A stretch of DNA of 38,372 nt from the NCBI RefSeq assembly GCF_000337415.1, contig NZ_AOJD01000077.1:124583-162954 (forward strand), read 5' to 3'. The translations under genes and the position numbers were made by a program. The DNA comes from Halorubrum tebenquichense DSM 14210. Its GTDB lineage: Archaea > Halobacteriota > Halobacteria > Halobacteriales > Haloferacaceae. Of this stretch, positions 19,568-35,497 are shown in pieces. The notes below the pieces were generated by a model. It made no database searches, was not told the origin of the DNA, and saw only the letters and a list, made by a program, of their open reading frames with translations. The first letter of the stretch is position 1. Every line of letters begins with the position of its first letter.

Positions 19568-19996
19568 TTAGCTCTCGATGTCGTAGCCCCATTCACGGAG
19601 CATCGATTCGAGCTCCTCAGGATGACTGAGCCCAACAAGCAGGGCGGCTTCCCGGAGATCAGCTTTCTTGACTGTCTCACCTAACCGATCCTCAACAGAG
19701 CGTCGTGCGTCACGCTGGACATCGATAGTCGATTGTTGAAGATGGAGTTGAACCGTCTTATCACGGCCATCAGTAATGCTGTTCCGCGTGAGCACCCAGG
19801 GAAGGTCGGTCGAGCGCTGTGCCGAAGTTCCACTTGTCTCCACAGACTGTTCAGGGGATTCTACTCCGGTCTCAATGGTCTCGTCAGCCTGCCGGTCGTC
19901 CGAGTTATCTTCACTCTGGTCAACTTCGTCGGCATCGGTATCGTACTCGCTGTCGCCCCAGTCGTCGTCCGCTGCGCCGCTTTTGAACCCACCCAT
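19568..19996 (-). CDS. ParA-linked plasmid protein, possible partition partner
   Basis: A 142-residue protein whose start overlaps the parA stop by one base (TAATG), so the pair is coupled. Residues 1-60 are Asp/Glu/Ser-rich and likely disordered. The C-terminal 80 residues, from PWVLTRNSITDGRDKTVQLH, form a mixed domain with helices KKADLREAALLVGL and HPEELESMLREWGY. It would be the analogue of a ParB/ParG-type adaptor that binds the centromere and stimulates ParA. No ribbon-helix-helix or ParB motif could be recognised with certainty. Confidence 0.7.
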   Translation of the reverse strand: MGGFKSGAADDDWGDSEYDTDADEVDQSEDNSDDRQADETIETGVESPEQSVETSGTSAQRSTDLPWVLTRNSITDGRDKTVQLHLQQSTIDVQRDARRSVEDRLGETVKKADLREAALLVGLSHPEELESMLREWGYDIES

Positions 19997-20880
19997 TATG
20001 CCGTCACCTCGAGTTCATCTTCGTCGATGGCACCGGGTTCAGGCGGGTTTGGTGCTGTGATCCCGCCTTGCTCCTCGACGAAACGGGCTACACGATCCAG
20101 CTGAGCGAGCGTTTCGATCTCATAATCCCGACGGCGGTCACGGTGGCTGCGAACATACTCGAACGCAGAGCACTGCTGTCGCCAACATCCTTCCATCAGT
20201 GACGTGCGGTCACCGATCACGGCAGGAACCTCATACGGAATCTCCGCAAGCATCTCTTCCTGATCGCGGGTCCCTTTAACGCCGATCGGGACGGCACCAA
20301 GTACTCCCACGTCGATATTCAGCTGGTCCGCGAAGTTTGTCGCGAGATCTTCTAACCCTTCAACGGCCGCCTGTCCCTTCGCAGAGGGCTCAACCGGGAG
20401 AAGCAGGTTTCGGGTTGCGTAGATCGCATTATACAGATGGGATCCTTCGGTCGCCGGAGGGTCACAGATGACAATATCGTACGTATCCGGGATACCCGCC
20501 TCACCAAGGACACGCCGGAGTTGGGCGTGGATGTTGTATGCGTCACCGAAGTCTTCCGCCTTCTGCTGTTCGCGCTCGAGGTGTTGACTGAGATCTGAGA
20601 GTGAATTATGTTCTGGGATGACGTCGATACCCTCCACAGTCCGGATCAGATCCTCAAATGGACCACGGGGGCTGCCCACCATGTGACGGACAAGACTGTC
20701 CGCGGATGCGTCCGCGCGATCGTCGTCAACGCCGAGGAGCCGACTCAGGTCGCCATCCTGTGGGTCGAGCGGGACCACGAGGACATCGAGCCCGGCTCGG
20801 CGGTGCGCCACGGCGAGGTTGGCAGCGAGCGAGGTTTTGCCGACGCCTCCTGCCTCGCTGTATACTGTGTACGCAAGCAT
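19996..20880 (-). CDS. parA: ParA-family partition ATPase
   Basis: A 294-residue P-loop ATPase with the deviant Walker A region SEAGGVGKTS at residues 8-17, a switch DPQDGDLSRLLG near residue 40 and Walker B-like YDIVICDPPA near 135. The signature lysine of classical ParA (KGGVGKT) is replaced by alanine at residue 10, although the P-loop lysine is intact at residue 15. The protein would segregate a low-copy replicon with the product of the adjoining gene. The upstream region contains strong palindromes that could be the centromere and autoregulatory site. Confidence 0.9.
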   Translation of the reverse strand: MLAYTVYSEAGGVGKTSLAANLAVAHRRAGLDVLVVPLDPQDGDLSRLLGVDDDRADASADSLVRHMVGSPRGPFEDLIRTVEGIDVIPEHNSLSDLSQHLEREQQKAEDFGDAYNIHAQLRRVLGEAGIPDTYDIVICDPPATEGSHLYNAIYATRNLLLPVEPSAKGQAAVEGLEDLATNFADQLNIDVGVLGAVPIGVKGTRDQEEMLAEIPYEVPAVIGDRTSLMEGCWRQQCSAFEYVRSHRDRRRDYEIETLAQLDRVARFVEEQGGITAPNPPEPGAIDEDELEVTA

Positions 20881-21699: not shown

Positions 21700-21719
21700 C
21701 CCACGGCTAAAGCCGTGGG
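21700..21719. repeat. IS200/IS605 right-end hairpin
   Basis: Perfect 9-bp stem with a two-base AA loop, five bases from the inferred end of the element. TnpA of this family recognises such subterminal hairpins as single-stranded DNA. The tnpB reading frame ends inside it. Confidence 0.85.
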
Positions 21720-22861
21720 GTTCCTCCACTGGGGGTTGAGCCCACAGAAATTGAGAGGTTCGCAGGTTCCTCGTCACGTTCGACGATGACCTGCGTTTTG
21801 GGCTGTGCCAGTACAGCCCCCGCCTCGGACAGCGGTTTCGAAAACTTGCCCGAGGCTCGTTTTCCGATGTTTAGCGCACCGTTCTTGTCCGCGTTGTCGT
21901 CCAATCCGCACTCGGGACACTCGAACCGCCCCTGCGTCTCCCGGACACCCTCACAGGCACAGCGGTTACACGTCTTCGACGTGTCGTATTCCTCGACCAA
22001 CACCACGTCGATACCCGCGCCGTGTGCTTTGTACTCGATGTAGTTCAACAGGCGAGCGAACGGCATCTTGTGGATCTTGTCGTTAATGTACCGCCCTTTG
22101 TCGTTGTCTCTACAAATTCCACCGAGATCACCCACGACGATGACCGTGTTCCGCTCTTCGGCATCCTCTACAATGTGTCGAGCAATCTTGTGGAGACGGT
22201 CGTCGACCTTCCGCGCTTCCGCGTCACCGATGCGCTCAACCACCTGCTGTCCCTGTCGAGGTTTGGCCTTCCCGATAGACTTCCGTAGTTGCTTGTAGTG
22301 TTCGCGGAGGCGGCGCACTTCTTCGCCGTAGAACGTGGTGTCACGGTCCGAGAGGAACGCGCAGGTAGCGACCCAGCGTGCGCCCATATCGATAGCCAGT
22401 ACGTCGTCATACTCGTCTGGGATGGTCACAGACCGTTTAACGACGAGATGGACGTACCAGTCACCATCACGGCGCACTAGTTCGCTATCTCGAATGTCAC
22501 CCTCTTGGACGAGTGTTTCGTCCTTGTGTGGAACGTGGGCGGGACACCAGATAGAGTTCCCCTGTCCCCGTTCAGGGTCGTATACAGGGACTTTCATCCA
22601 CCACGACGACAGCACCGTGTCCTTGTCGTGAGCGATATCCAGTACGTCGTTGCGGAGAACGACGGGCTGCTCGGTGTCAGGGTTCGGGTCTTTCTGTTGC
22701 TGGACTTTCGACGCTTGCTGTTTCGTCGCGGAGTAGAGGTCGGCATCCCCGCCGTGAACCTCGCGTTGGAACGCCTCGTACTCACGGGCCAGCATATCGG
22801 ATTTTCTGTTGGTCAGCGAGTGGAGCTTGACCCGCACCGTGGTTGAGACGTTCCGTTGCAT
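21707..22861 (-). CDS. tnpB: TnpB (IS605 OrfB) with glycine at the RuvC glutamate position
   Basis: A 384-residue RNA-guided nuclease-family protein. RuvC-I aspartate is D158 (LAIDMGARW) and RuvC-III aspartate is about D325 (NADKNGALN), with the zinc finger C-x2-C...C-x2-C between residues 298 and 318. The RuvC-II segment reads VIVVGDLGGI, so G244 occupies the place where TnpB usually has a catalytic Glu (V-x-x-E-D-L). It may be cleavage-deficient, or use another acidic residue. Its start lies two bases after tnpA. TnpB normally cuts donor sites to keep the element; a dead version would instead bind DNA. Confidence 0.85.
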   Translation of the reverse strand: MQRNVSTTVRVKLHSLTNRKSDMLAREYEAFQREVHGGDADLYSATKQQASKVQQQKDPNPDTEQPVVLRNDVLDIAHDKDTVLSSWWMKVPVYDPERGQGNSIWCPAHVPHKDETLVQEGDIRDSELVRRDGDWYVHLVVKRSVTIPDEYDDVLAIDMGARWVATCAFLSDRDTTFYGEEVRRLREHYKQLRKSIGKAKPRQGQQVVERIGDAEARKVDDRLHKIARHIVEDAEERNTVIVVGDLGGICRDNDKGRYINDKIHKMPFARLLNYIEYKAHGAGIDVVLVEEYDTSKTCNRCACEGVRETQGRFECPECGLDDNADKNGALNIGKRASGKFSKPLSEAGAVLAQPKTQVIVERDEEPANLSISVGSTPSGGTPRL

Positions 22862-23351: not shown

Positions 23352-23371
23352 CCCACCCGTGAACGGGTGGG
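23352..23371. repeat. IS200/IS605 left-end hairpin
   Basis: Perfect 9-bp stem with GA loop, 15 bases inside the inferred left end. It is preceded by TCGGCTTCAT and followed by GCTTTCGCCTTG, a layout shared with the element ending near 25322. Confidence 0.85.
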
Positions 23372-23386
23372 CTTTCGCCTTGCTAC

Positions 23387-23861
23387 CGCTGTAACGGACG
23401 TAGAAGACGGGTCAGACAGAGCAGCCGGGTTTGATATGCCAGGTGTTCGCGTCGACCGCGACGACGCCGTTGCCATCTACGAAACTGCCGCTGACGCAAT
23501 CGGCAGAGCCCGGGACAGGAACGGACCCACACTCCTCGAAGTTCAAGTCCACCGACGGATGGGCCACTTCATGGGCGATCCACAGACGTATCGGCCTGAT
23601 GAGGACGAGGAGGCGGCACTCGCGCGGGATTCGATCGATCGCCTCGAATCGAGATTACACGACCACGGCGTCGACGACGAAGCACTCGCCGAGATCCGTG
23701 ACGAGGTCGAAGCGCGCGTTGAAGATGCCATCTCGTGGGCAAAAGAACAGCCCCATCCAGACCCCGAAGACGCGTACGACGACGTCTTCGTCAATCCACC
23801 GTCGGGTGTGACAACAGAGGAGCCGGAGTTCAACCTCGCGGAGGTGAACAACGATGACTGA
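23387..23861 (+). pseudogene. 2-oxoacid dehydrogenase E1-alpha, 3' part
   Basis: The continuation of the interrupted E1-alpha: AVTDVEDGSDRAAGF, then PTLLEVQVHRRMGHFMGDPQ and FVNPPSGVTTEEPEF to the stop. It contains the conserved arginine/histidine phosphorylation-loop-like region RRMGHFMGDP of such subunits. In frame it joins exactly to the part ending at 21694. Its last eight bases overlap the E1-beta start. Confidence 0.88.
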
Positions 23862-23884
23862 AGATAGCGATGTTATCGACCGTC
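23854..23884 (+). pseudogene. E1-beta subunit, N-terminal stub
   Basis: Only ten codons (MTEDSDVIDR) remain before the second transposon begins. The overlap with E1-alpha and the order alpha-beta-lipoyl identify it as the beta subunit start. The rest of the gene is missing except for its C-terminus at 25326. Confidence 0.65.
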
Positions 23885-25184
23885 AGTGACCCACGACTGA
23901 AGTCGTGGGCTTGTCAGTGGACTCCCCCTCTACCGTCGAATCAACGGAGGCGTGGAACTCGCCGTTCAGGTTCAGCGTCCCTGACTTGAGCGCACACTGA
24001 CAGGGTGCGCCTCCACTCGAAGACGTTTGCCCCGAGTGGAGACGTTTCAGCAGTTTGCGAGCGATATTCTTGCTCGCGTTGTAGTCCGCGTTCAGTTCGT
24101 ACTCGCACTTCTGACAGACGAACTGGTGTTTCGACCGCCGATTGCCCTCGTGGGTAAACCCGCACGACGAACACCGCTGGGACGTGTACGCCGGACTCAC
24201 CCGCGCGACCTCGATACCGTCCATCTCGGCTTTGTACTCGACGTACTCGAACAAGCGGCGGAACGCCCACGCGTGGAATCGTTTTCCGCCTCCCATCCGC
24301 GTGCGAATATCAGTCAGGTTCTCGAACGCGATGTGCGTACACCCGTGGTTGCGGGCTTCGTCGAGAATCCGGTTCGATGCGCGGTGGAGTTCGTCCTGTA
24401 TCCAGCGGTGTTCGCGGTCGTTCATCGACTGAATCGACAGATGCGCCGACCGCGTCCTCGTCTGTTGCATCGACCCGCGCGTCTTCTCGAACTCCCGGCG
24501 TCGATGGTTCATCTCGTCGGCGTTCCCGATGAACGCGCCTGTCGAAGTCACTGCGAGCGACCCGTCCACGTTCAAATCGACCCCAAGGACTGTTCTGTGC
24601 TTGGCGTCGTCAGAAGTAGTCGTGAACTGGTCTTGCTTGTCCGTTGTTCGGCGCATCCGTGCGTGGAGGTAAAACGATGCTGTACTGCGATCGTACTGTA
24701 ACGTGGACATTCGAAACTCGTAGTCCTCGTTCAGCAGGTACTCGCCGATCGGTGTGTCTTCGGGATCGTCGGGGAGCACGTAATCGCACTCGACGCGACC
24801 GTTCACAGTCGACAGCGACACGTGGTCACGGTGGAACGTCGCAGAGCGTTTGTCATAGACAACGCTCCACGCGTCGAACTGCGGCTGACTCGTCTTCTCG
24901 CCCTTTTCGAGGCGGGCAACACCGCTTTTTGTGGCCTCGATAGCGCGTCGAATTCCTTTTTGGACGAGATTCGCAGTCAACTCCGTCTCGTCGCGGAGCC
25001 GGTCGTAGAGGGCGTTTTCGGCTTTCTGTTTCGAGGTCACGCAGTAGTCGTTCGGATGCCTCCACGCCCACTCTGAGGTGGTGTTCGCACAGTGGAGGAA
25101 CTGGTCTTTCGTCTGATGGAGGTCGTCGCACCGCTCTGTGGGAACGTTGAGTTTGACTTTGACCGTGCGAATCGCGTCCTCCAT
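23883..25184 (-). CDS. tnpB: TnpB (IS1341-type OrfB) with intact RuvC triad
   Basis: A 433-residue TnpB from the ATG at 25184 (MEDAIRTVKVKL); the frame is open six codons further. The catalytic residues are visible: Asp in VLGVDLNVDG, Glu in HIAFENLTDI and Asp in LNADYNASKNI, with zinc-ribbon CSSCG and CQKCE. It therefore looks able to act as an RNA-guided nuclease, unlike the TnpB at 21707. No tnpA accompanies it, so its mobility depends on a transposase in trans, perhaps that at 22864. The C-terminus reads into the right-end hairpin. Confidence 0.93.
   Translation of the reverse strand: MEDAIRTVKVKLNVPTERCDDLHQTKDQFLHCANTTSEWAWRHPNDYCVTSKQKAENALYDRLRDETELTANLVQKGIRRAIEATKSGVARLEKGEKTSQPQFDAWSVVYDKRSATFHRDHVSLSTVNGRVECDYVLPDDPEDTPIGEYLLNEDYEFRMSTLQYDRSTASFYLHARMRRTTDKQDQFTTTSDDAKHRTVLGVDLNVDGSLAVTSTGAFIGNADEMNHRRREFEKTRGSMQQTRTRSAHLSIQSMNDREHRWIQDELHRASNRILDEARNHGCTHIAFENLTDIRTRMGGGKRFHAWAFRRLFEYVEYKAEMDGIEVARVSPAYTSQRCSSCGFTHEGNRRSKHQFVCQKCEYELNADYNASKNIARKLLKRLHSGQTSSSGGAPCQCALKSGTLNLNGEFHASVDSTVEGESTDKPTTSVVGH
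23890..23909. repeat. Right-end hairpin of the tnpB-only element
   Basis: Perfect 9-bp stem with GA loop. It lies at the 3' end of tnpB, where the omega RNA scaffold would be transcribed; the guide would then come from E1-beta stub DNA outside the element. Confidence 0.8.
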
Positions 25185-25287
25185 CCGTACTTCACATATC
25201 AATAGATCTATTTATATATTTTAGGATTGGGATCGGGGAGTCAGGCGGCCATCGTTCGCGGACTGTATAGCATTTTGTCGGCTTCCT

Positions 25288-28920: not shown

Positions 28921-30267
28921 ATGGTTGACGGTGACGATCAACAGTCCCTCTCACAATCTATCAAAGGACGCCTCCAGGAGGGAGTTCAAAACTCGGTTTT
29001 CCGAGATAAGGGCCTTCTCGACCCGGATGCCGTCATCGACGAGGACCGAATCGTCGGTCGTGATGACCAGCTTGACGATATCATCACCTACCTACGACCG
29101 GCAGTACAGGGAAACCGCCCACCAAATATGCTTCTCTACGGCCCATCCGGGACGGGGAAGTCGCTCATTATCAACGCGGTCTGTCAGCAGGTTCTCGAAC
29201 TCGCGAACGCCCAAGACGACCGTTTTGGGGTTATTAAAATCAACTGTCAGACAATCAAATCGCACGATAGGGCCGTCTATCGACTTGTGGAAAACGCCGC
29301 AACTGAAGCAGACGTTGAAGTTGGAGTTCCACAGAGTGGTGTCTCGACAGACCAGAAACTCAACCGGTTCTATGAGATCCTGAGCAACAACTTCGACTCG
29401 GTCATCATCATCCTGGATGAGGTTGACCTCTTGGTAGGGCGACAGCGGGACCCGAACGATGAGCCAGCATACTCCAAGTTGCTCTATCAGCTCTCTCGGG
29501 CATCACAGCTCGGCCAGATCGAGGGGCACGTTTCTGTTGCAGCGCTCACAAACGATCCCCGGTTCATGGAGAACCTCGACGGTCGGGCAGAGAGCTCGTT
29601 CAATCCGCAGGATGTCGTCTTTTCAGACTATGATGCGGACCAACTACAGTCTATTCTGAAACGACGTCGTGACGCATATCGGGACGGTGTCCTTGAGGAC
29701 GGGATCATTCCACTTAGCTCCGCATTTGCGGCACAGGACCACGGTGACGCCCGGAAAGCGATCGATCTGTTTCGGAAAGCAGGCGAGATTGCAGACCGTG
29801 AAGGCGAAGAGATGGTTCATGAAGGGCACGTTCGTGATGCCCAGAAAGAAGCCGAACGGGATCGAACGCTGACTCAGATGCAAGGGTTGTCGACCCAAAA
29901 GAAACTCTCGCTTTACGCTACTGCGATTGTCCCCGTCTACTCACAACGCAATCTGAACGCTGTTCCCAGTACGGTTGCATATCGTGTGTATCAGTACCTT
30001 ACTGACTTACTTGACGCTGATACAAAATCGCGCGACTCCTACCTCCGGTATATGAGTGAAGCGGAGACATACAACTTTGTCACATCAGAAAAACGTGGAC
30101 GCGGCTACGGCAGCGGTGTTCACAAGGAGTACACGTTTGTTGATGATCCGGGTGTGGTTGCTGAAACTCTTCGAGCTGACATCCGGATTGAAGAGGCAGA
30201 CAATGAAGGCGATCTAATCAAATCTGTTGTCAACGCACAAATAGATGATTTCTTCGAAGGAAAGTAG
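28921..30267 (+). CDS. orc: Orc1/Cdc6 replication initiator
   Basis: A 448-residue AAA+ initiator. Walker A is GPSGTGKS at residues 74-81, Walker B is VIIILDEVD at 161-169, sensor-like AALTNDPRFMENLDGR follows, and the C-terminal winged helix covers about residues 340-430. It would bind the flanking ORB-like repeats and load the replicative helicase. Repeats lie on both sides of the gene and the last upstream one is only 35 bases from the ATG, so binding may also repress its own promoter. TATTTATAG just before the start could be the TATA box of a nearly leaderless transcript. Confidence 0.96.
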   Translation: MVDGDDQQSLSQSIKGRLQEGVQNSVFRDKGLLDPDAVIDEDRIVGRDDQLDDIITYLRPAVQGNRPPNMLLYGPSGTGKSLIINAVCQQVLELANAQDDRFGVIKINCQTIKSHDRAVYRLVENAATEADVEVGVPQSGVSTDQKLNRFYEILSNNFDSVIIILDEVDLLVGRQRDPNDEPAYSKLLYQLSRASQLGQIEGHVSVAALTNDPRFMENLDGRAESSFNPQDVVFSDYDADQLQSILKRRRDAYRDGVLEDGIIPLSSAFAAQDHGDARKAIDLFRKAGEIADREGEEMVHEGHVRDAQKEAERDRTLTQMQGLSTQKKLSLYATAIVPVYSQRNLNAVPSTVAYRVYQYLTDLLDADTKSRDSYLRYMSEAETYNFVTSEKRGRGYGSGVHKEYTFVDDPGVVAETLRADIRIEEADNEGDLIKSVVNAQIDDFFEGK

Positions 30268-32498: not shown

Positions 32499-32933
32499 TC
32501 AGTTCGGATCGTAGGGGTTCGTTGCTGATTCAAGCCGATAGACGTCCTCGACAGCGTCGAAGTCGTCATCGAACGCATACAGGTAGCCAAGCCCCTCGGT
32601 TTGCATATACGCGACAATACAGGCATCGACGAACGAGAGCGGTTCGTGTTGGCGAAAGAGCGACTTTCCCGTCGCGAGGGCGGTGGTGGTGAGTGAATCG
32701 ATGTGGAAGTGAGCGTTCTCTTCGAGGCGGTCGAGCAGATCGACCGCTGCGTCGTGGCCGGCGTGGGTCGTGAGGCCGTTTAGCGTTTCGGCGAGAACGT
32801 AATCGAGGATGACTCCCTCAGGAAGCGTTCCAGTATCGATGCCGTGGAGCACCGGGAGTGCGGCGTCGTGTGATGTATCTTGCTTGTACGCCGCTGCAAA
32901 CAGAACCGACGTATCGATGAGTGCGCGAGGCAT
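32499..32933 (-). CDS. vapC: PIN-domain toxin VapC
   Basis: A 144-residue PIN ribonuclease. The acidic active site is visible: D7 (LIDTS), E49 (AETLNG), D103 (FVDACI) and D122 or D124 (FDDDFD). It would cleave RNA when freed from its antitoxin. Its ATG follows the antitoxin stop directly, without a gap. Confidence 0.92.
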   Translation of the reverse strand: MPRALIDTSVLFAAAYKQDTSHDAALPVLHGIDTGTLPEGVILDYVLAETLNGLTTHAGHDAAVDLLDRLEENAHFHIDSLTTTALATGKSLFRQHEPLSFVDACIVAYMQTEGLGYLYAFDDDFDAVEDVYRLESATNPYDPN

Positions 32934-33185
32934 TTACTCGATGTCGACGCCCCACGCATCGTGATCGCTGGTCACATCGGTGTCTTCCTCACCAGCGTAC
33001 CCGTCGAAATCGGCGAACGTACCCGTCTGCTGTTGGATGACGTGGACCCGGATACTCCCGTCATCTTCCAGCTGCCAGCGAAGCTGATCACCGTCATCAA
33101 TATCGAGTTCCCGTCGAATCCGGGCGGGGATGTTTGCCTGGTTTCCAGACACCTTGCTTTCGGCGTCGATTCTGTCGCTGCTCAT
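32934..33185 (-). CDS. vapB: AbrB-like antitoxin VapB
   Basis: An 83-residue SpoVT/AbrB-type protein: SKVSGNQANIPARIRRELDI, then GDQLRWQLEDDGSIRVHV, the swapped-hairpin DNA-binding fold, and an acidic tail of about 30 residues that would block the toxin. The ATG at 33185 is preferred over a long upstream frame. The pair likely autoregulates through this protein. Confidence 0.9.
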   Translation of the reverse strand: MSSDRIDAESKVSGNQANIPARIRRELDIDDGDQLRWQLEDDGSIRVHVIQQQTGTFADFDGYAGEEDTDVTSDHDAWGVDIE

Positions 33186-33276
33186 ATCTCCGGGTAAGTG
33201 ACCAACCCTGAAAAGGCTAGTGTGCCGCCACACTATACAGTAGCAAAAGACCGATTCCGATGAAGAGGACGGTGAT

Positions 33277-34098
33277 TCATTTTGAAACCGTTGGGAGGCG
33301 ACCGTCTGGTCGGGGCACACGGCCTCGTTTGATCTCGTGATCGACGTGACGCAGGTGCTTACAGCCGCCTTCGGGTGAACGCTGCTGCCAGTCCGGGCAG
33401 GTACACGCCTCTTCGGCGACGTCGACTTCGTACCGATTACCGGACGCGGACTGGACCTCGTAGCGACCACCTTTGGAGAGGAGCGAGACGTCCATCGATT
33501 CGGTGACGGCGCGCTTCGTGCGAGGCTCAAGTTCGTCCTGTGACTGTGCGGTATCGTCGACGACCAGCCGATCGCGTACGTCGCCCGTTCGGCCACCATC
33601 CGGAGCGACAGCTTCCGCAGGGCCACTGAGGCGCTCGTGAAGTAGTTCTTCTACCGGATGCCCTTCTGGCCACAGGTAGTGTACCTCACGGCGCTCACGA
33701 TGGTCGTAGGAGCCGCACGCGGCTGCGCTCCCTATCCAGACGCGCCAAGCACCCAGCGCAGCCATCACGTCGACGATGATACGGGGAACCGTCTGGTGGT
33801 CGTCCGGGAAGAACACCCGGAAACGCGTACACGCCTCTTGGGGCGGGACAGTTTCCCACCAGTCTTCGCTGGAGCCCCAACTGTCGAACATCGCCTCGTC
33901 GGTGCCGTAGCCCACCGTGATGCCGTCGATCGGCGTCCAGCCCGTCGGGATGTGGTCTGCCTGCCCCTCGAGTATCCTGAGGACGGCGTAACGAAGGTAC
34001 TCGTGGGTTTGGTTGTCCGTCGTTCGGGCCACCTTGTCGTGCTGCTCGGCAACGTGCTCGGCTTCCTCGAGGACCGTTGTGAGATAGTCGTCAGTCAT
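33277..34098 (-). CDS. SWIM zinc-finger domain protein
   Basis: A 273-residue protein whose C-terminal part contains EEACTCPDWQQRSPEGGCKH, the CxC...CxH SWIM pattern, near residues 232-251. SWIM domains bind DNA or proteins. The N-terminal 190 residues resemble other haloarchaeal plasmid proteins but no motif was recognised. It is located on an apparent plasmid accessory strip with the ArdC-like gene. Confidence 0.75.
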   Translation of the reverse strand: MTDDYLTTVLEEAEHVAEQHDKVARTTDNQTHEYLRYAVLRILEGQADHIPTGWTPIDGITVGYGTDEAMFDSWGSSEDWWETVPPQEACTRFRVFFPDDHQTVPRIIVDVMAALGAWRVWIGSAAACGSYDHRERREVHYLWPEGHPVEELLHERLSGPAEAVAPDGGRTGDVRDRLVVDDTAQSQDELEPRTKRAVTESMDVSLLSKGGRYEVQSASGNRYEVDVAEEACTCPDWQQRSPEGGCKHLRHVDHEIKRGRVPRPDGRLPTVSK

Positions 34099-34194: not shown

Positions 34195-34977
34195 TTAGCG
34201 AGCAAGCCGCTCTTCGAGCACGTCGATGAGCTCCTCTGCCGTCCGACTGATCCGACCGAGCCGCTCGCGAACGACCTCGGGGTCGTCCGACTCCCAGGCT
34301 GCGAGGTAGAACGCCGAGCCGCTGGTGTCGAGGCCGCAGTACCGCCCAACGACGTATGCGACGGCTTCGGCCTCGACTTCGCGTTTCGACCGTTCCGTAT
34401 CGTCGTCGACGTCGAAGTGGAGCAGAGCGTGCGCGTACTCGTGAACCAGTGTCCGAGCGAGATCGGCGTCGTTCTCGCGATCTCGAACCTCAACACGCGG
34501 CTGCATGTCGATGAGACTGAGCTGCTCGCAGATTCCTTTCGCCTCGCCGTGCGTCCACTCGTTGGCTGGAATGATCCGGACCGTCACGCCGAGGTCATCA
34601 GCGGCGGCAGTCAACTGTTCGACGAGGTCGCCGGCGTCGCCGGTCGCTTCCGTATCCAGATCGGGGAGCGGCTCGCCCTCGGTCTGGGAGATGTCGAACA
34701 CCGGCGCGGGCTTGAATCCGACGAGCCCCTCCGACCACTCCTCAGGTGGCGTCTCGTCGTACCCACAGTCACTGTCCTCGTGGTAGTTCGGCGAGTTCTC
34801 GCATTCCGGGCATTGCTTCGTGATGATCGGTGCCCAGATCCAGATGGCTGACTCGCCCTCTTGGACGTGCGGGTCCGCGCCGACGAGACGGTCGAACACC
34901 GTCTTTCCGGTGGCTAACGCGTCATCATGGGTCGATGCCTCTACCAGTGCGGAAATCACCATATGTATCTCGAACAC
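34195..34977 (-). CDS. Chimeric protein with ArdC-type zincin metallopeptidase domain
   Basis: From GTG at 34977 the protein is 260 residues. The C-terminal two thirds match the zincin part of ArdC antirestriction proteins: HVQEGESAIWIWAPI, a cysteine pair in KQCPECENSPNYHED, VFDISQTEGEPLP, then the active site HEYAHALLH with a downstream ligand-like EAEAVAYVVG. The N-terminal 36 residues (FEIHMVISALVEASTHDDAL...FDRLVGADP) resemble a different plasmid protein family, and the usual ArdC ssDNA-binding N-domain is missing. This suggests an in-frame fusion by deletion. A longer open frame to 35091 has a non-protein-like start. Confidence 0.72.
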   Translation of the reverse strand: MFEIHMVISALVEASTHDDALATGKTVFDRLVGADPHVQEGESAIWIWAPIITKQCPECENSPNYHEDSDCGYDETPPEEWSEGLVGFKPAPVFDISQTEGEPLPDLDTEATGDAGDLVEQLTAAADDLGVTVRIIPANEWTHGEAKGICEQLSLIDMQPRVEVRDRENDADLARTLVHEYAHALLHFDVDDDTERSKREVEAEAVAYVVGRYCGLDTSGSAFYLAAWESDDPEVVRERLGRISRTAEELIDVLEERLAR

Positions 34978-35074: not shown

Positions 35075-35497
35075 TCAGGAGTCGGCCGCACGCTTGACGG
35101 TGATGGTCAGATCCCCGGACTCATAGTCCGCTTCGAAGTCGGCGACGTACGCATCTGAATCGTAGGCGACGTGGTAGGCGCGGTGACGCTCGAGGGATCC
35201 GGTCGCCTTGTAGTGGAAGAATGCGGCCGCCGTGTAGGGCTTGCTCAGTATCTCTATTTGTGTCTCAACCGATGCCGGAAGCGCGATCTGTGGTGTGTCA
35301 GTGTCGATGCTCGCCGCGAACTCTTTGGCCTCCTCGACAGTCGCTTGCGAATGTACAGGTGTTGCGCCAGTGAGCACGTTCACCGGAGTTTCGGTCTTGT
35401 CGGTGAACAGGGCGTCTTCGAAGGTATGCGTCCCGAGGATCGCATCGGGAGCTAACTCGCAATCGTCGAAGGGATTGTCAGTTGTTTCATCGGCCAT
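35075..35497 (-). CDS. Plasmid hypothetical protein
   Basis: A 140-residue acidic soluble protein with CELAPDAILGTHTFEDALFT, then ALPASVETQIEILSKPYTAA and LERHRAYHVAYDSDAYVADF. No motif of known function. It has the same strand as the ArdC-like chimera, with about 100 bases between, and probably belongs to the same plasmid accessory set. Confidence 0.6.
   Translation of the reverse strand: MADETTDNPFDDCELAPDAILGTHTFEDALFTDKTETPVNVLTGATPVHSQATVEEAKEFAASIDTDTPQIALPASVETQIEILSKPYTAAAFFHYKATGSLERHRAYHVAYDSDAYVADFEADYESGDLTITVKRAADS

Follow-up and report, generated by a model that had tools for sequence, protein, structure and literature searches.

The minus-strand open reading frame that ends at position 34195 of the window (the whole 38,372-nucleotide stretch analysed, from Halorubrum tebenquichense DSM 14210) is, judged by its alignments, a real in-frame fusion: the start of one haloarchaeal plasmid gene, here termed the N gene, is joined to the back end of a gene for an ArdC-like protein. 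In related plasmids the two parents are same-strand neighbours in one module, which makes this, as far as gene order tells, a deletion fusion of border genes and not a shuffling of distant genes. We consider it quite likely that a single deletion made the fusion, and that the resulting protein is a by-product of that event and not a selected new protein.

The fused reading frame and its parent genes

The frame is open throughout from ATG 34962 to the stop at 34195, and stays open further back to GTG 35091. The start given in the earlier note, 34977, is a GTG codon, and ATG 34962 is the likelier start. Relatives have the annotated ATG of the N gene two codons further upstream, at a position where the window reads ATA. 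The fused frame, its two halves and the motif of its catalytic part are as follows.

34195 to 34962, minus strand: fused ORF, 255 aa from ATG 34962, or 260 aa from GTG 34977
34867 to 34962, minus strand: 5' part, the first ~32 codons of the N gene, from alignments to N genes
34195 to 34869, minus strand: 3' part, the C-terminal ~224 codons of a haloarchaeal ArdC-like protein, from alignments to ArdC genes
34429 to 34443, minus strand: HEYAH, zincin metal-binding motif, invariant in the alignment of relatives and supported by a Peptidase_M78 match and a fold match to R388 ArdC residues 142–291

Residues 1–32 of the fusion read MVISALVEAS...FDRLVGADPH, and the rest runs from HVQEGESAIW to the end. 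Searched separately, the two halves led to two unrelated families, and both parents were found whole and common in other haloarchaeal plasmids; the reading of the earlier note, an in-frame chimera of a plasmid protein N-terminus and an ArdC metallopeptidase, is thereby borne out. Of 72,556 plasmid records, 109 match residues 1–32, and in 107 of these the match covers at least 80% of the query. The full fusion matched in 710 of the same records, and all 40 matches listed begin at residue 30 or 32. At the nucleotide level, the N part together with the gene upstream of it (the up gene) aligns over ~630 bp at 80–82% identity, and the ArdC part over ~680 bp at up to 91%. Since both matches are so extensive, chance is excluded.

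The N gene encodes a 163-aa haloarchaeal plasmid protein and is a stand-alone ORF in relatives. The fusion shares the first 32 residues of this family and lacks the remaining ~129. No Pfam family was found for the N gene product; one copy (L085:4538-5029) gave a sub-cut-off match to the NCBIfam model MBSP1, ‘biosurfactant protein 1’, at 63 bits against a cut-off of 320. The ArdC of relatives is likewise a stand-alone ORF, of ~310 aa. From haloarchaeal ArdC-like proteins such as that of Haloplanus sp. GDY1 (NZ_CP098517.1, 312 aa), the fusion differs in the absence of the first ~88 residues; the retained ArdC part is 91% identical at the DNA level to locus L086.

Gene order, the proposed deletion and the joining of the ends

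The usual order in annotated plasmids is up gene (138–140 aa), N, DUF7568, DUF7567, variable genes, ArdC and a SWIM-like protein, with the outer ends of the N–ArdC module differing in a few plasmids. N lies upstream of ArdC on the same strand in 11 of the 12 annotated stretches examined; in the twelfth, L087, no ArdC is annotated within the part examined. A search of the 58 other relatives returned 21 N matches, of which 19 have an ArdC downstream on the same strand and contig and two do not. The distance from N to ArdC in these 19 cases is 7.6–37.4 kb in 18 and 74 kb in one; the smallest N–ArdC spacing seen is ~4.2 kb (L083), and the usual spacing is 4–37 kb. In the window, the fusion has the up gene as its immediate upstream neighbour and the SWIM-like gene as its immediate downstream neighbour, and the genes between N and ArdC are all missing.

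35075 to 35497, minus strand: up gene, the upstream neighbour, 140 aa, also the N gene's neighbour in most relatives
33277 to 34098, minus strand: downstream neighbour, 273 aa, weak SWIM match, also ArdC's neighbour in many relatives

The parents are thus intact, collinear and on the same strand in relatives, and the outer neighbours are kept. Because these neighbours have remained and the interval between them is gone, a single deletion fusing the border genes is the simplest origin. Such a plasmid deletion would have removed everything from about codon 35 of N to about codon 88 of ArdC. The break would then have been rejoined, probably by end-joining, inside a 10-bp block that is similar in both genes, and the fused product would be made from the start of the N gene. 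Within this account, we infer the joining mechanism, the expression and the loss of antirestriction.

The block is where the nucleotide alignments meet, those to N genes running to 34866 and those to ArdC genes starting at 34875, in agreement with the shared DPH/HV point at which the junction had been placed before.

34866 to 34875, minus strand: junction block GACCCGCACG, 10 bp, parents alike at 8 of 10 positions

In the block, GACCCACACG is shared by nine of the ten N loci printed (L068 differs), and ten of the eleven ArdC loci printed read GACCG, one base and CACG (L110 has GATCG). Base 5 of the block in the window is N-like and base 6 is like that of the five of 11 ArdC loci with CGG; these two bases put the best point of exchange between 34871 and 34870. 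Since the block has the same frame in both genes (D-P-H in N, D-R-H in ArdC), the join is in frame. If the parents carried their commonest bases, four bases match on each side of the join and the exact overlap amounts to 0 bp, which weakens the end-joining step; an N parent with CCG would give 5 bp. Furthermore, an 8/10 match over 10 bp is not rare by chance across kilobases. Haloferax volcanii has been described to rejoin cut plasmids by end-joining with 3–5 bp of microhomology, and the deletions reported from that assay, 6–977 bp, are far smaller than the one proposed here (PMC2700283). A later paper describes such joining after self-targeting (PMC7521656). An end-joining mechanism would fit, with a deletion larger than in the assay.

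What lies between N and ArdC varies between plasmids (L083–L086, L088–L090 and L157–L160). A restriction endonuclease is annotated in the interval in 7 of 11 stretches; five of the seven endonucleases were examined, three matching Mrr_cat and two matching PADLOC type IV or Mrr-like models. The interval of L090 holds HamA and HamB of Hachiman and a PDC-S39 candidate, that of L089 a mercuric reductase and a metal ATPase, and that of L085 a ParE toxin. From these annotations, the N–ArdC interval looks like a cargo and defence hotspot of haloarchaeal plasmids.

The two halves could alternatively have come from two different plasmids, with recombination joining the N gene of one to the ArdC of the other. 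Identity to relatives is lower for the up gene (78–81%) than for the ArdC part (86–91%), which speaks for such an origin. However, all four parts are further from the relatives than the relatives mostly are from each other (L085 stands out in its SWIM gene), as in one divergent lineage, and the remaining gene order is exactly that expected after a deletion. We therefore regard recombination between plasmids as very unlikely.

A false join of two separate loci by the assembler appears even less probable, in our view barely worth entertaining. The genome is a draft of 93 contigs and the join falls in a short similar block, both of which would suit an artefact. Nevertheless, a block of 10 bp should be too short to mislead an assembler, ~3.8 kb separate the junction from the end of its contig (163,356 bases), both outer neighbours are in the expected order, and the other halves of both genes as well as the next gene are absent from an assembly rated 99.7% complete. 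Searching this genome with the full 163-aa N protein returned residues 1–35 alone and no other part of the N gene. ArdC is present from residue 86 on only; neither an ArdC N-terminus nor a match to the ArdcN profile was found, and DUF7568 was not found either (best E 0.24). The gene that precedes ArdC in relatives gave two weak matches (E 0.009 and 0.03, 33% and 27% identity), which seem weaker than a conserved gene's orthologues should give, yet the absence is not clean.

The window holds further genes of the accessory kind, listed here as separate observations. Just past the SWIM-like gene, a PIN-domain protein stands beside a MazE-like protein (32499–33197, minus strand), a VapBC-type toxin–antitoxin pair. 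An Orc1/Cdc6-type replication protein (28921–30267, plus strand) and a ParA-like ATPase (19996–20880, minus strand) suggest a plasmid or secondary replicon. The ORF at 23367–23861 (plus strand) matches only the C-terminal part (174–300 of 300) of a dehydrogenase E1 component and is flanked by transposon-like ORFs, one with a TnpB-like match (21707–22861) and one judged by eye (23883–25202); it is probably a gene truncated by insertion.

Distribution of the junction

A query of 75 residues spanning the junction was searched against 392 genomes of the order, among them the own genome, with matches listed down to E ~2e-20. The junction was spanned in one genome of the 392, which is the own genome (169 bits); the next best match, at 85 bits, covers the ArdC side only. 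A match in G381:C2 reached residues 12–75 at 61% identity, with 78.8 bits against the 169 bits of the fusion. The architecture, on whose being uncommon the reading of the earlier note depended, was found in none of the 58 other relatives, none of the 391 other genomes of the order and none of the 72,556 plasmid records, where a match to the full protein would have topped the list.

We also scanned a species-genome collection (84,980 genomes) with patterns including DPHVQEGE across the junction, which gave 426 loci, of which the best 80 were kept. The fusion was not found among these best 80 loci, and in all five of them that also carry N, the N gene is a separate upstream gene. The collections searched may omit records near the window's own genome. 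In eight of the loci listed the match begins at residue 1. Three of them (L062, L064 and L066) have ordinary ArdC N-termini, and L067, L072 and L080 show ordinary ArdC starts; in L076 and L077 (ORF of 332 aa) the start region is ambiguous. Viral contigs yielded 37 loci and no fusion, all at 27–37% identity in the best segment, as distant ArdC-like proteins. No paper on this fusion appeared among the results listed by searches of open-licence PMC.

The retained zincin and its known relatives

Two intact ArdC relatives match Pfam ArdcN (PF08401) above the cut-off, at residues 26–100 and 29–100, and the fusion has no such match. The junction corresponds to about residue 89 of intact ArdC, so that 63 of the 75 ArdcN-matched residues (26–88) are gone, and about one sixth of the match together with the stretch before the zincin is kept. 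The earlier claim that the ssDNA-binding domain is lost is right as regards the Pfam match; it goes too far in that the junction lies inside the domain and a remnant is retained. In a survey of polyvalent proteins, the nested hairpin of ArdC-N is connected with ssDNA binding (PMC5512222). DNA binding would presumably be lost in the fusion. For R388 ArdC it has been reported that the mutant E229A conjugated like the wild type and that the protease is not needed for antirestriction (PMC7213743). Because the protease is dispensable there and most of ArdC-N is gone here, the fusion has probably lost antirestriction.

The HEYAH motif occupies residues 174–178 of the fusion, and the Peptidase_M78 match scores 22.5 bits against a cut-off of 22. 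The zincin domain was predicted with block pLDDT of 79–94 (residues 111–210) and 80–93 (residues 231–255), and 59–65 between; residues 1–27 were modelled as helices at pLDDT ~50. The model was also tried as a test for an unfolded ArdC-N remnant, and rejected for this use: pLDDT is below 50 over most of residues 28–103 of the fusion, but the intact control L001 is equally unsure over most of its ArdC-N. The low values in the remnant arise at least partly because the alignment is shallow. In fold comparison, the best matches of the fusion model were the R388 ArdC structures, 6sna with Z 9.8 and 6i89 with Z 9.1, the next being 7.4; Foldseek alone gave 6i89 at E 0.016. Sequence searches of the PDB, with the single protein and with a profile, gave no match, and fold comparison alone linked the fusion to R388 ArdC.

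To look for decay, we set the ArdC part of the window against 63 distinct relatives, which remained from 76 tblastn matches once 13 duplicates were removed; matches below 85% identity, shorter than ~200 residues or with a stop had been left out before. Its median dN/dS of 0.076 is the fourth lowest of the 64. It has no private change at 82 invariant columns, a test of little power since the same holds for 39 of the 64 sequences when the window is counted among them. On these comparisons the ArdC part is not decaying, and a young fusion would look alike. The low dN/dS and the lack of decay could mean that the fused gene is in use.

This bears on the question of whether the fusion is a functional new protein. 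The same deletion could have created a working stand-alone zincin, expressed from the N promoter and either released from ssDNA binding or guided by the N-terminus it has gained. In support of this, the frame and HEYAH are kept, the zincin fold is predicted confidently and resembles R388 ArdC (by both structures), and dN/dS is low. On the other hand, the fusion occurs in one genome only among those searched, the dN/dS blends the time before and after the fusion, and the private-change test is weak. We consider such a function improbable; likewise, a working ArdC-type zincin standing at the border of a cargo and defence hotspot, born when the hotspot was emptied by a single in-frame deletion, would come as something of a surprise. 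A deletion with the protein as its by-product is the reading we prefer.

As a natural case in which the deletion of several genes has sealed two border genes into a single frame, the locus is clean, and both of its parents are known. It also provides a form of ArdC whose zincin is complete and whose DNA-binding part is truncated, of use in studying the role of the protease alone, and it points to the N–ArdC interval of haloarchaeal plasmids as a site of cargo turnover, including defence genes.

Compared with R388 ArdC (PDB 6i89, 6sna; PMC7213743), the C-terminal zincin is alike, residues 107–252 of the fusion superposing on 142–291 with Z 9.1 and HExxH kept, whereas the fusion is without most of the N-terminal ssDNA-binding domain and has 32 residues of another protein instead. 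Fusions made by deletion have been described from Mycobacterium tuberculosis (PMC7671302), where a multigene deletion likewise joins two same-strand genes in one frame. The fused protein was reported there as detected for at least one case, whereas the fusion described here is known from DNA alone. The N–ArdC junction is unique in these searches, and as a fusion made by deletion it is of a known kind.
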